Positions 42,433-47,449 of a stretch of DNA of 64,000 nucleotides are shown here, in pieces. The notes beneath the pieces were generated by a model. It worked only from the letters and a program-made list of their open reading frames with translations. It had not been told where the DNA came from and made no database searches. The stretch is from Phenylobacterium sp. (GTDB taxonomy: Bacteria; Pseudomonadota; Alphaproteobacteria; Caulobacterales; Caulobacteraceae), in assembly GCF_013911965.1 (NCBI RefSeq), contig NZ_JACESE010000008.1:124001-188000 (forward strand). The letters are read 5' to 3'. Position 1 is the first letter of the stretch. The number at the start of each line of letters is the position of its first letter. The translations under genes and the position numbers were made by a program.

Positions 42433-42497
42433 TCGGGCTTGACGCCCTTAGCGGCGCCTGTCGCACCTTGTCCGAAAGAGAGCAAGGGAGCGCGCCG

Positions 42498-43649
42498 TTG
42501 AGCCAGATCCAACCCTTCGAAGTCCGCTGGGACGAGGCGCAGGTCGCCGCCGTGCTGGACCAGGTGCGCGCCTATCCCTGGCCGCCGATCCCGCAGGTTC
42601 CCGACGGCTGGGCCTATGGCTGCGACGCGGCCTATCTGAGGGACCTCTGCGCCCACTGGACCGAGGCCTACGACTGGCGCGCCGCGCGCGACGAACTGAA
42701 CCGCTTCCCGCAGTTCACCGCCCGCGTCGAAGACTTCGACCTGCACTTCGTCCATGTGGTGGGCGAGGCGGGGGGAAGGCGGCCGCTGATCCTCTCCCAC
42801 GGCTGGCCGGGCTCGCACTACGAGTTCTGGGGCGCGATCGAGAAGCTGGCCTTTCCCTCCCGCTTCGGCGGACAGGCGTCGGACGCCTTCGACCTCGTGA
42901 TCCCGTCCCTGCCCGGCTTCGGCTTCTCGTCCAAGCCGGTGCGGCCGATCGGACAGCGGGCGACCGCGCGGCTCTTCAACACGCTGATGGTCGAGGTGCT
43001 GGGCTATTCCGCCTATCTCGCCCAGGGCGGCGACTGGGGCTCGATGATCACCTCCTGGCTCGGCCACGATCACGGCCAGCACGCCAGGGCCATCCACCTG
43101 AACATGATGGCGTTCCGTCCCGCCGGGGGGCCGCAGTCCGAGGCCGAGACCGCCTGGATGACGCGCCAGGCCGGCATGATGGACCTGATGGGGGCCTATT
43201 TCCGCCTGCAGGCGTCCAAGCCCCAGTCGCTGGCCTGGCTGGGCGCCGGCAATCCGGTGGGCCAGGCGGCCTGGATCGCCGAGCGCTTCCACGACTGGTC
43301 GGACCTGTCGGCCAAACCCTTCGACGAGGTCCACCCGAAGGACCGGCTGCTGACCAACATCATGCTCTATGTGATGACCGACTCGTTCGCCACCGGCGCC
43401 TGGTACTATCGCGGCCTGCTGGAGGAGGGCGGGATCGCGCTCAAGCCCGGCGAGCGCTGCGAGACGCCGACCGCCTTCGCCAACTTCCCCGGCGAGCCCC
43501 TCTATTCCGCCCCGCCGCGCAGCTGGGCCGAGCGGGCCTACAACCTCGTCCGCTGGACCGACATGCCCCGCGGCGGCCATTTCGCGGCCATGGAGGAGCC
43601 GGATCTGTTCGTTGAGGACGTTCGCGACTGGGGTAGAAGCGCGGGATGA
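42498..43649 (+). CDS. epoxide hydrolase (alpha/beta-hydrolase, EHN domain)
   Basis: A 383-residue microsomal-type epoxide hydrolase with an N-terminal EHN domain (IQPFEVRWDEAQVAAVL). Oxyanion motif LSHGWPGSHYEFW, nucleophile D179 in AQGGDWGSMI, and the terminal His in RGGHFAAMEEP are all present. It opens epoxides to diols through an ester intermediate. A TTG at 42498 is taken as start because AGGGAG (42485-42490) is properly placed and the family starts there; a TTG 30 bp earlier is also in frame. The stop overlaps the threonine-aldolase start as ATGA. Confidence 0.92.
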   Translation: MSQIQPFEVRWDEAQVAAVLDQVRAYPWPPIPQVPDGWAYGCDAAYLRDLCAHWTEAYDWRAARDELNRFPQFTARVEDFDLHFVHVVGEAGGRRPLILSHGWPGSHYEFWGAIEKLAFPSRFGGQASDAFDLVIPSLPGFGFSSKPVRPIGQRATARLFNTLMVEVLGYSAYLAQGGDWGSMITSWLGHDHGQHARAIHLNMMAFRPAGGPQSEAETAWMTRQAGMMDLMGAYFRLQASKPQSLAWLGAGNPVGQAAWIAERFHDWSDLSAKPFDEVHPKDRLLTNIMLYVMTDSFATGAWYYRGLLEEGGIALKPGERCETPTAFANFPGEPLYSAPPRSWAERAYNLVRWTDMPRGGHFAAMEEPDLFVEDVRDWGRSAG

Positions 43650-44656
43650 TCGCCCGCTACGACTTCGCCTCGGACAACACCGCCCCCGCCGCCCCAGAGG
43701 CCATCGCCGCGCTGAACGCCGCCAATGCGGGCTTCGCCGCCAGCTATGGCGCCGATGCGACGACCGCCCGCGCCGCCGACCTCATCCGCGAACTGCTGGA
43801 CGCCGACGCCGAGGTGCGGTTCGTGACCTCCGGCACGGCGGCCAATTCCATCAGTCTGGCGGCGCTCTGCCGCCCCTTCGAGGCGGTGCTGGCGCATCGG
43901 GACTCCCATGTGGCCACCGACGAGACGGGCGCGCCCGCCTTCTTCGGCCACGGCCTGGCGATCCGCGGCCTGTCCGGCGCGTCCGGGCGCATCGAGCCGG
44001 CGGCGCTGCAGGCGGCGCTGGCGGCGCCGGAAAGCGCCCACGCCCAGCCGCCGGCGGCGCTCTCGCTCACCCAGGCCACGGAATATGGAACCGTCTATTC
44101 GGCCGACGACCTGGGCGCCCTGATCGGCCCGGCGCGCGGGCGCGGCTGCGGCGTCCACCTGGATGGCGCACGGCTCGCCAACGCCATGGCTGCGGGCTTC
44201 GATCCCAAGGCGATCCAGGGACTGGGCGTGGACCTGCTGGTCATCGGCGGGACCAAGGCCGGCATGACGCCCGCCGAAGCCATCGTCCTGTTCCGCAAGG
44301 ACCTCGTCCCCCGTTTCGACGCGCGCCTGAAGCAGTCGGGCCAACTGCCGTCCAAGAGCCGCTACTACGCCGCCCCCTTCGTCGGCATGCTGCAGGACGG
44401 ATCGTTCGTCCGCCGCGCCGCCCACGCCAACGCCATGGCGCAGAAGCTGGCCGGCCTCACGCCCTTTCCGCTGCGCCACCCGGTCGAGGCCAACGGCGTC
44501 TTCGTGGAGATGGACGAGGCCGCCCTGAGGCGCCTGCACGCGGCGGGCTGGGCGGCCTATCGCTTCATCGACGGCTCTGTGCGCTTCATGTGTTCCTGGG
44601 CGACGACCGAGGCGGCGGTCGAGGAGCTGGCCGGAACCCTTCGCGCGATCGCCTAG
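43646..44656 (+). CDS. low-specificity L-threonine aldolase family protein
   Basis: A 336-residue PLP enzyme of the beta-eliminating lyase/threonine aldolase family, which cleaves threonine or allo-threonine to glycine and acetaldehyde. Features are FASDNTAPAAPEA, VTSGTAANSISLAAL, HRDSHVATDETGAP, HLDGARLANA and the PLP lysine in IGGTKAGMTPAEA. The usual GTKNG is here GTKAG. Coupled to the epoxide hydrolase by ATGA (43646-43649). Its stop overlaps the stop of the convergent LuxR-hydrolase gene by three bases. Confidence 0.92.
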   Translation: MIARYDFASDNTAPAAPEAIAALNAANAGFAASYGADATTARAADLIRELLDADAEVRFVTSGTAANSISLAALCRPFEAVLAHRDSHVATDETGAPAFFGHGLAIRGLSGASGRIEPAALQAALAAPESAHAQPPAALSLTQATEYGTVYSADDLGALIGPARGRGCGVHLDGARLANAMAAGFDPKAIQGLGVDLLVIGGTKAGMTPAEAIVLFRKDLVPRFDARLKQSGQLPSKSRYYAAPFVGMLQDGSFVRRAAHANAMAQKLAGLTPFPLRHPVEANGVFVEMDEAALRRLHAAGWAAYRFIDGSVRFMCSWATTEAAVEELAGTLRAIA

Positions 44657-46311
44657 GCCGCCATCCAGCCCATGATCTCGGGCCAGTGCTTGTGCGGCAG
44701 GAAGTGGCCCACGCCGTCGAAGACCCGCACCTGATGCGGCGCATGGCCGAGCCAGGAGAGAACCTCCTCCACGCTGGTCACCGTGTCCTCCGCGCCGTGC
44801 CAGACCGACACGGGCGCGCGCAGGCGCGGCCAGGACGCGCCGTCGCTGGAGGCGAGCAGGACGGTTTCCCGGGCGACGCCCTCTGAGCCTCGCGTCAGAC
44901 TCTCGCCCATGTAGGCCTGGATGAAGTCGACCACTCCGGGGTGGCGGGCGAGGTAGGCGCCGTCGCCAGGCGCCGATGCGCCGGCCCGCACCATCCGCTC
45001 GACGAGGCTGTGCGAAAGCCGGCGACGGAACACGGCGTACATCGGCCCGGCCACCCAGCGCAGCCGCAGCATGCGCCGGCGAAGCAGGACCAACGGATTG
45101 CGCCGGTCCTCAGGCCGCTCGGGCGCTGCGCCCGTCGGACGGGCCGAGGCCAGGAGCACGTGCTCGACCTCGCCGGCCATGTCCTCGGCATAGCTGAGGG
45201 CGAAGGCGGCGCCATACATCATCGCCGCCACCCGCACGCGACGCATGTCCAGGGCGCGGGTCAGGTCGCCGAGATCGGCGGCGACCGCCTCGAGGCTGAG
45301 ATCCGGATGGAGGTCCGAGCGCCCGACGCCCGGGCGTTCCGCGCAGACGATCCGCAGGCCCAGGTCCCGGGCCAGTTCGTCCGACCCCCGCGGCAGAAGG
45401 GATGATCCCAGCCCCTGGTGAAAGACCATGCAGGGGCGGCCGTCCGGCCGTCCATATACGCGATAGGCCAGAGCCCGGCCGTCGGGCAGCCGGTGGATGC
45501 GGACCGGAGGAGCCGCCATCAGGGCCCCGGCCTCGCTGGCCGAGACGATGGCGGGCTCCGGCTGGATCGAGTTCGACAAGGCGCTGAGCTGCGCCAGGGC
45601 CCGGACGAGTTCGCTCTGCCGGTTGAGCCCCATCTTGTCGAACACCGCCCGCAGCTGGTTGCGCACGGTGTTGAGGGAGACGCCTAGGTCGTCCGCGGCC
45701 TCCTTCAGGGTGCGGCCCGCCTTGAGGCGCGCCGCCAGCCGGGTCTCCGCGGCGGTGAGGCCGAAACTGGCGCGGACGGTCATCCACAGCCGGTCGGTGT
45801 TTTCCGGCGCCGGAAAGATGACGGCGACCTTGGCCCGAGGGGCCTCCCTGCCCTCGACGCCCTGTCGCAACATAGCCGGCAGGGCCTCAATGGGCCCGAC
45901 ATAGGCGAACCGCGGATCCTCGTCCTCGGCCTGGACCAGACGGACGATGACCTGGGCCGCGCCCGTCTCCCCGAGCCGACGGCGGGCCTCGACCAGCGCC
46001 TCGTGATTGGCCGGGCTGAACAGCGGCCGTCCCGCGGCGTCGTCCGCCCCCAGCTTGCCCCGCAAGAGCGACTTGCCCGCGGCGTTCCAGCCCACGACGG
46101 CGCCGTCGGCGGCCAGCAGCAGCAGGCCCACGGCCGGAGGACCGACCGGCGCGTCTTCCAAGCCGTCCATGTCCGTCTCGGACGGCGCATCGGCGGGCGC
46201 GTCGGCCAGGGCGGTGACGAGGCTTTCCCAAAGCGCCGGATCGGCCGCGACCGTGTGCAGGGTCTCGATGAGCTGATCGGCCTCAGAACGACGGACGGCG
46301 GCGGACGGCAC
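44653..46311 (-). CDS. LuxR-type regulator fused to a degenerate alpha/beta-hydrolase domain
   Basis: A 552-residue fusion. The N-terminal half has a PAS-like segment (about 60-150; VGLLLLAADGAVVGWNAAG) and a LuxR-type helix-turn-helix (about 183-240; FGLTAAETRLAARLKAG, EAADDLGVSLNTVRNQLRAVF). From about 270 comes an alpha/beta-hydrolase (MVFHQGLGSSLLPRG; late Asp/His in WHGAEDTV and DGVGHFLPHKHW). The nucleophile elbow, normally G-x-S-x-G, reads A-M-M-Y-G, with M365 where serine should be. So the hydrolase is probably non-catalytic and may act as a ligand receptor for the regulator. It is transcribed away from the nitronate monooxygenase gene region but on the same strand. Confidence 0.88.
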   Translation of the reverse strand: MPSAAVRRSEADQLIETLHTVAADPALWESLVTALADAPADAPSETDMDGLEDAPVGPPAVGLLLLAADGAVVGWNAAGKSLLRGKLGADDAAGRPLFSPANHEALVEARRRLGETGAAQVIVRLVQAEDEDPRFAYVGPIEALPAMLRQGVEGREAPRAKVAVIFPAPENTDRLWMTVRASFGLTAAETRLAARLKAGRTLKEAADDLGVSLNTVRNQLRAVFDKMGLNRQSELVRALAQLSALSNSIQPEPAIVSASEAGALMAAPPVRIHRLPDGRALAYRVYGRPDGRPCMVFHQGLGSSLLPRGSDELARDLGLRIVCAERPGVGRSDLHPDLSLEAVAADLGDLTRALDMRRVRVAAMMYGAAFALSYAEDMAGEVEHVLLASARPTGAAPERPEDRRNPLVLLRRRMLRLRWVAGPMYAVFRRRLSHSLVERMVRAGASAPGDGAYLARHPGVVDFIQAYMGESLTRGSEGVARETVLLASSDGASWPRLRAPVSVWHGAEDTVTSVEEVLSWLGHAPHQVRVFDGVGHFLPHKHWPEIMGWMAA

Positions 46312-46381
46312 GGCGACTCTTCATGAAGGGAACAGCCGCCAGATTACAGTCGCCCGCGGGATCGCCAACCGCCTAAGGCCC

Positions 46382-47449
<1,068 letters not shown>

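Follow-up and report, generated by a model that had tools for sequence, protein, structure and literature searches.

Closest Described Systems and the Locus

Regulators with sensor domains derived from enzymes are a known kind, and enzyme-derived receptors have so far been known singly. The plant gibberellin receptor GID1 has a hydrolase fold with an incomplete triad; it loses the His rather than the Ser and has no DNA-binding fusion. VqmA-type regulators combine a PAS domain with a LuxR-type helix-turn-helix (HTH) and have no hydrolase after the HTH. Here we analyzed a regulator gene of Phenylobacterium sp. located in a 64,000-nucleotide stretch of contig NZ_JACESE010000008.1 (positions 124,001 to 188,000, hereafter the window). 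Its product shares with VqmA the PAS and LuxR-type HTH parts, whereas of the two it alone has a C-terminal alpha/beta-hydrolase domain, with Met365 in place of the nucleophile (Table 1). The original prediction had compared this dead hydrolase to GID1, i.e., to an incomplete-triad hydrolase fold used as a receptor. This comparison offers what we regard as the best available reading, in which the domain would be a sensor.

The nearest described idea is the bipartite module of RsbQ and RsbP-PAS from Bacillus and others, in which an alpha/beta-hydrolase works with a PAS domain and controls an output domain (PMC3183031, excerpt). According to the same excerpt, RsbQ is encoded separately, its Ser-Asp-His triad is both conserved and required, and a phosphatase, a histidine kinase or a diguanylate cyclase serves as output, whereas the window regulator is a single chain that has lost the nucleophile and whose output is an HTH. 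Being fused and devoid of the Ser, its hydrolase falls outside the module as defined in that excerpt (PMC3183031). LipJ/Rv1900c, as its NCBIfam title indicates and as generally understood, also has an alpha/beta-hydrolase fused to a signalling output, but this is an adenylate cyclase and not an HTH. The Microlunatus alpha/beta-fold hydrolase 9wlv (290 residues) has a Ser at the elbow (G-W-S-G-G) and no HTH part. Among the open-licence papers listed and the excerpts consulted, none was found to describe a LuxR-pseudohydrolase family, and the form appears to be a new variant of the known kind.

Table 1. Features of the regulator locus, with positions counted from the first letter of the window.
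Feature	Positions	Strand	Remarks
Epoxide-hydrolase-type gene (EHN + Abhydrolase_1)	42468..43649	+	
Pyridoxal-phosphate-dependent beta-eliminating lyase/threonine-aldolase-like gene	43646..44656	+	Convergent with the regulator
Regulator gene	44653..46311	-	552 aa; PAS-like / LuxR-type HTH / pseudo alpha/beta-hydrolase
Alpha/beta-hydrolase-fold domain	44659..45504	-	Residues about 270-551
His536 codon	44704..44706	-	Kept in the window protein and in 19/28 rows of subclade A
Asp509 codon	44785..44787	-	Acid kept
Arg391 codon	45139..45141	-	After strand beta-6; Arg in 28/28 subclade A rows, 0/26 ordinary hydrolases
Met365 codon (ATG)	45217..45219	-	Nucleophile elbow
Ser304 codon	45400..45402	-	Oxyanion loop; Ser in 28/28 subclade A rows
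LuxR/GerE-type HTH	45586..45774	-	Residues about 180-242
PAS-like domain	45793..46140	-	Residues about 58-173
Promoter-like TTGGCG-16-TAATCT	46341..46368	-	Gap between the nitronate monooxygenase (NMO) gene and the regulator
NMO/FabK-like gene	46382..47380	-	Directly upstream of the regulator, same strand, 70 bases apart
Palindrome CAAACAGACGTTTG	47388..47401	-	Just ahead of the ribosome-binding site of NMO; likely a TetR site of PsrA type
Second palindrome CTGAACGGCGTTCA	47418..47431	-	About 30 bases from the first; candidate

Domain Architecture and Loss of the Nucleophile

A PAS fold was found at the N-terminus, with VqmA chains among its structural matches, and the central HTH is of the GerE type that defines LuxR/GerE regulators (22.2 bits in hmmscan, just below the cut-off of 23.5, and 26.7 bits, above it, in the genome scan). 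The autoinducer-binding domain of LuxR proteins of the acyl-homoserine-lactone type was not among the 12 Pfam hits obtained down to an E-value of 1. The C-terminal domain has the alpha/beta-hydrolase core fold, with Abhydrolase_1 above the Pfam cut-off. The layout initially proposed, with a PAS-like N-terminus and an HTH in the middle, was thus recovered, and the window protein is fairly likely to be a one-component transcription regulator with a pseudo-hydrolase as sensor, of which we infer the sensing and the ligand.

The elbow reads VAAMMYGAAFA (residues 361-371). When aligned with relatives bearing GxSxG, Met365 occupies the Ser column, as originally predicted, and the structure model places a strand up to residue 364 and a predicted helix from 367. 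Catalytic hydrolases of this fold combine an elbow Ser, Asp or Cys with an acid and a His; the late Asp and His are still present, again as predicted (Asp509 and His536), though with Met365 at the elbow. Residues 361-371 of the window protein include no Ser, Cys, Thr or Asp and thus no candidate nucleophile, so that misalignment was rejected as the cause of the missing Ser. Judged from its sequence, the C-terminal domain has lost the capacity for serine-hydrolase catalysis.

To place Met365 among homologues, we gathered 213 distinct open reading frames (ORFs; 274 before copies were removed) and dropped three that had no elbow or HTH stretch. HTH and elbow occurred together in 170 ORFs (hereafter fusions), and no HTH was detected in the other 40; the profile, A2, derives from relatives of the window protein and leaves distant fusions under-sampled. 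The nucleophile column of the 170 fusions contained Asp (33), Leu (25), Met (22), Ser (20), Ala (9), Gly (9), Thr (7), Val (6), Gln (5), Asn (3), His (2) and one each of Phe, Cys and Ile, the residue being missing in 26. Since Met recurs in 22 fusions, we rejected the reading of Met365 as a single mutation. Ser occupied the column in 39 of the 40 ORFs with no detected HTH. The exception, L144 (642 aa), has Arg there and counts as non-fused since its HTH stretch was unmatched.

We obtained a quick tree of 140 representatives (112/170 fusions and 28/40 others) from which the elbow columns were excluded and in which many forks stayed open. The fusions split into two groups, one of 92 rows including the window protein and L144 (support of 95 in the SH-aLRT, a Shimodaira-Hasegawa-like approximate likelihood ratio test), and a sister group of 22 rows, 17 of them from family code f189, outside the class of the window genome, two from that class and one named Chromatiales. 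Ser, acid and His were together present in 25/26 ordinary relatives outside both groups, in 7/22 rows of the sister group (one of them non-fused; Ser, with or without the other two, in 16/22) and in 0/92 rows of the window's group. The loss is thus common to the whole clade, and the window hydrolase is a pseudo-enzyme by sequence, as had been suggested. Six of the 170 fusions, all in the sister group, keep the triad, which makes it false that LuxR-hydrolase fusions always lack Ser; intact homologues, which the original prediction had named as a sign of a single mutation, do exist further out and are absent from the window's group.

Two subclades of the window's group differed in the column. 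Subclade A, to which the window protein belongs (28 rows), had Leu (14), Met (6), Thr (3), Val (2), Ala (1), Ser (1) and, in the last row, another state. Subclade B (38 rows) had Asp (17), Ser (2) and Asn (1), and no aligned elbow residue in 18 rows (AR-GG and similar, as in L024, L044, L046 and L103); its catalytic His was kept in 1/38 rows and was mostly Arg (22/38).

Several observations weigh against the reading as a one-component regulator with a pseudo-hydrolase sensor. A pure receptor would need neither Asp509 nor His536, and subclade A keeps them in 28/28 and 19/28 rows, respectively. In 21/28 rows of the same subclade a Ser stands one residue past the nucleophile column, where the window protein has Tyr, and these rows may have a shifted nucleophile. 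Ser occupies the column itself in 5/92 rows of the window's group, though none of the five has both acid and His, and L138 of this group, with Asp-Asp-His, could be catalytic as dehalogenases or epoxide hydrolases are. Finally, synteny is broad across the genus, so that conserved neighbors are weak evidence for regulation.

The domain could thus still be an enzyme with an unusual mechanism, using the shifted Ser366 in sister proteins or an Asp nucleophile in other subclades, and sensing by turnover as D14/KAI2 do, or in the manner of RsbQ. The retention of Asp509 and His536 in subclade A, the Asp-Asp-His of L138, the six intact sister-group fusions and one more with Cys-Asp-His fit this view. 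The elbow of the window protein, with its lack of any candidate nucleophile, and subclade B, with 18 missing elbow residues and a single His, argue against it, and we consider it quite improbable. RsbQ, for its part, requires its triad according to the excerpt of PMC3183031.

Two side observations concern the catalytic residues of other fusions. In the fused HTH-hydrolase L173 (genome G783), the nucleophile is replaced by Cys (GFCGGG) while acid and His are present, and this regulator may carry a working thiol hydrolase. L171, L172, L175, L178, L179, L183 and L184, all from f189 in the sister group, keep the Ser with the His replaced by Ser, Ala, Asn or Phe, and thus have half-lost triads.

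A tree constrained to hold all 112 fusion rows together was not rejected (likelihood higher by 13.4, p-AU of the approximately unbiased test 0.66); a single fusion event followed by losses is thus possible. The state of the Ser column changed at least nine times by parsimony.

Selection and the Former Active Site

We estimated the ratio of nonsynonymous to synonymous substitution rates (dN/dS) among 22 relatives, a set that leaves out the window gene itself, using the 43 of 231 pairs with hydrolase dN < 0.2. It ranged from 0.05 to 0.24 (median 0.13) in the hydrolase domain, from 0.04 to 0.37 in the N-terminus and from 0.00 to 0.10 in the HTH. The dead hydrolase domain is under purifying selection, as would be expected of a domain still in use. 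A decaying, functionless domain would agree with the variation of the catalytic residues between paralogues, but in addition to the low dN/dS in close pairs, a stop was noted in two rows only among the matches listed for the genus, and 59/100 genus genomes carry at least one copy (E <= 1e-60), with a maximum of four. We find decay very hard to credit. Matches also occurred in 28/385 genomes of the class (1e-30) and 42/398 of the phylum (1e-40), both counts including non-fused hydrolases.

All six loops of the old active site varied less than the domain does on average (0.74-1.56 versus 1.68 bits). In a comparison of 27 close fusions with 28 non-fused rows, whose overall divergence differs (1.68 versus 2.24 bits), the elbow was the sole loop of the six less conserved in the fusions, and the loop after beta-6 was much more conserved in them. 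The latter carries Arg391, which is found in 6/38 rows of subclade B; in certain haloalkane dehalogenases this place is next to the catalytic His. Position 304, invariant in subclade A, is Arg in 21 and Ser in two of the 26 ordinary hydrolases, and position 299 is Glu or Gln in 20/28 subclade A rows. We infer from these residues a pocket rebuilt with a fixed positive charge, which would suit an acid or acyl ligand.

The same loops bear on the possibility that the dead hydrolase serves for structure or dimerisation, or docks another protein, with the PAS-like domain alone reading the signal. VqmA and other PAS-LuxR regulators use the PAS domain for sensing, the window protein has a PAS-like domain with VqmA-type structural matches, and the same genome has a 429-aa open frame with an HTH homologue whose match covers the HTH alone, so that hydrolase-free relatives may exist. 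A mere scaffold would, however, more likely keep its surface than its pocket, and here the conserved loops and newly invariant residues are those of the former active site. We consider a scaffold rather unlikely. Since the loss extends to a large group of related regulators, what was once an enzyme probably now works as a chemical sensor.

In the proposed mechanism, the old active-site pocket would bind a small hydrophobic molecule, probably acidic or of acyl type, without turnover; once the molecule is bound, the hydrolase domain would move relative to the PAS/HTH core and so alter DNA binding. The regulated genes would most likely be the neighbors, here NMO and the regulator itself, and in a sister subclade an operon of alcohol dehydrogenase (ADH), intact hydrolase and short-chain dehydrogenase/reductase (SDR). 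In broader terms, we give about even credence to a large bacterial family of one-component regulators, with an expansion in Phenylobacterium and members dispersed in Proteobacteria, in which a hydrolase fused behind a LuxR HTH gave up catalysis for the role of small-molecule receptor, a counterpart of GID1 wired directly to DNA; the intact relatives would then be snapshots of this change. As triads that are intact, half lost or fully lost occur on one HTH-hydrolase chassis, the path from enzyme to receptor would be open to experiment, and the pseudo-hydrolase domain could serve as a new ligand-sensing module for bacterial regulators.

Genomic Neighborhood and Probable PsrA-Type Sites

NMO lies directly upstream of the regulator, on the same strand, in 13/18 loci with a window-type regulator (window included; some of the other five end at contig ends), and accA precedes NMO in 12 of the 13. 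A -10-like TAATCT or similar, judged by eye, recurs in the gap between NMO and the regulator in close relatives; the regulator may thus have its own promoter besides that of the NMO operon. In the sister subclade (loci L066-L092), the regulator is divergent from the operon of zinc-ADH/quinone oxidoreductase, intact alpha/beta-hydrolase and SDR, some loci having a glyoxalase gene in between. The intact hydrolase reads GVSMG in 12/17 loci, those where its ORF was found.

AAAC-N4-GTTT was present before NMO in the 12/12 named loci holding the NMO family as well as in the window, and in 14/17 sister loci AAACANNTGTTT separated the divergent ADH gene from the regulator or from a glyoxalase gene preceding the latter. 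The PsrA site is given as G/CAAAC(N2-4)GTTTG/C and TTCAAACN4GTTTGAA in the excerpt of PMC13104628. The pattern CAAACANNTGTTTG occurred in 66/100 genus genomes, and its reversed control in one. Across these 100 genomes, relatedness being ignored, it was found in 65/87 with TetR_C_30 proteins, which we take to be PsrA-like, versus 1/13 without (p 5e-6). Genome size as a confounder was checked in genomes of at most 3.4 Mb (17/25 versus 1/13, p 5e-4). The association with the fused regulator was weaker, at 45/59 with versus 21/41 without (p 0.011; p 0.30 within TetR-positive genomes). L092, which has the regulator and the ADH gene but no site, was assigned to genome G823, devoid of both TetR_C_30 and the site.

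Because the palindrome fits the PsrA consensus and tracks TetR_C_30 and not the fused regulator, we rejected it as the regulator's own operator and assigned it provisionally to a PsrA-type repressor, i.e., a TetR regulator of fatty-acid type, whose site it probably is. The window genome has eight sites with at most one mismatch, and five of the seven outside the window adjoin Pfam-named genes: acyl-CoA dehydrogenase (two), enoyl-CoA hydratase, cytochrome P450 and zinc-ADH. Such neighbors are what a fatty-acid-type regulon would look like, and the genus probably has one (L275-L281 are among its loci). Control of the NMO-regulator operon would thus probably be of PsrA type, and this suggests a ligand of lipid-like nature. 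The candidate ligand originally proposed, a small lipophilic ester, epoxide or acid, agrees loosely with this site and with the neighbors (NMO, accA, epoxide hydrolase and the sister ADH-hydrolase-SDR operon).

The second palindrome, CTGAACGGCGTTCA, was found at this promoter in eight genomes, that of the window and seven related ones. Its pattern, CTGAACGNCGTTCA, lay near NMO by position in eight genomes, and some match to it occurred in 30/100.
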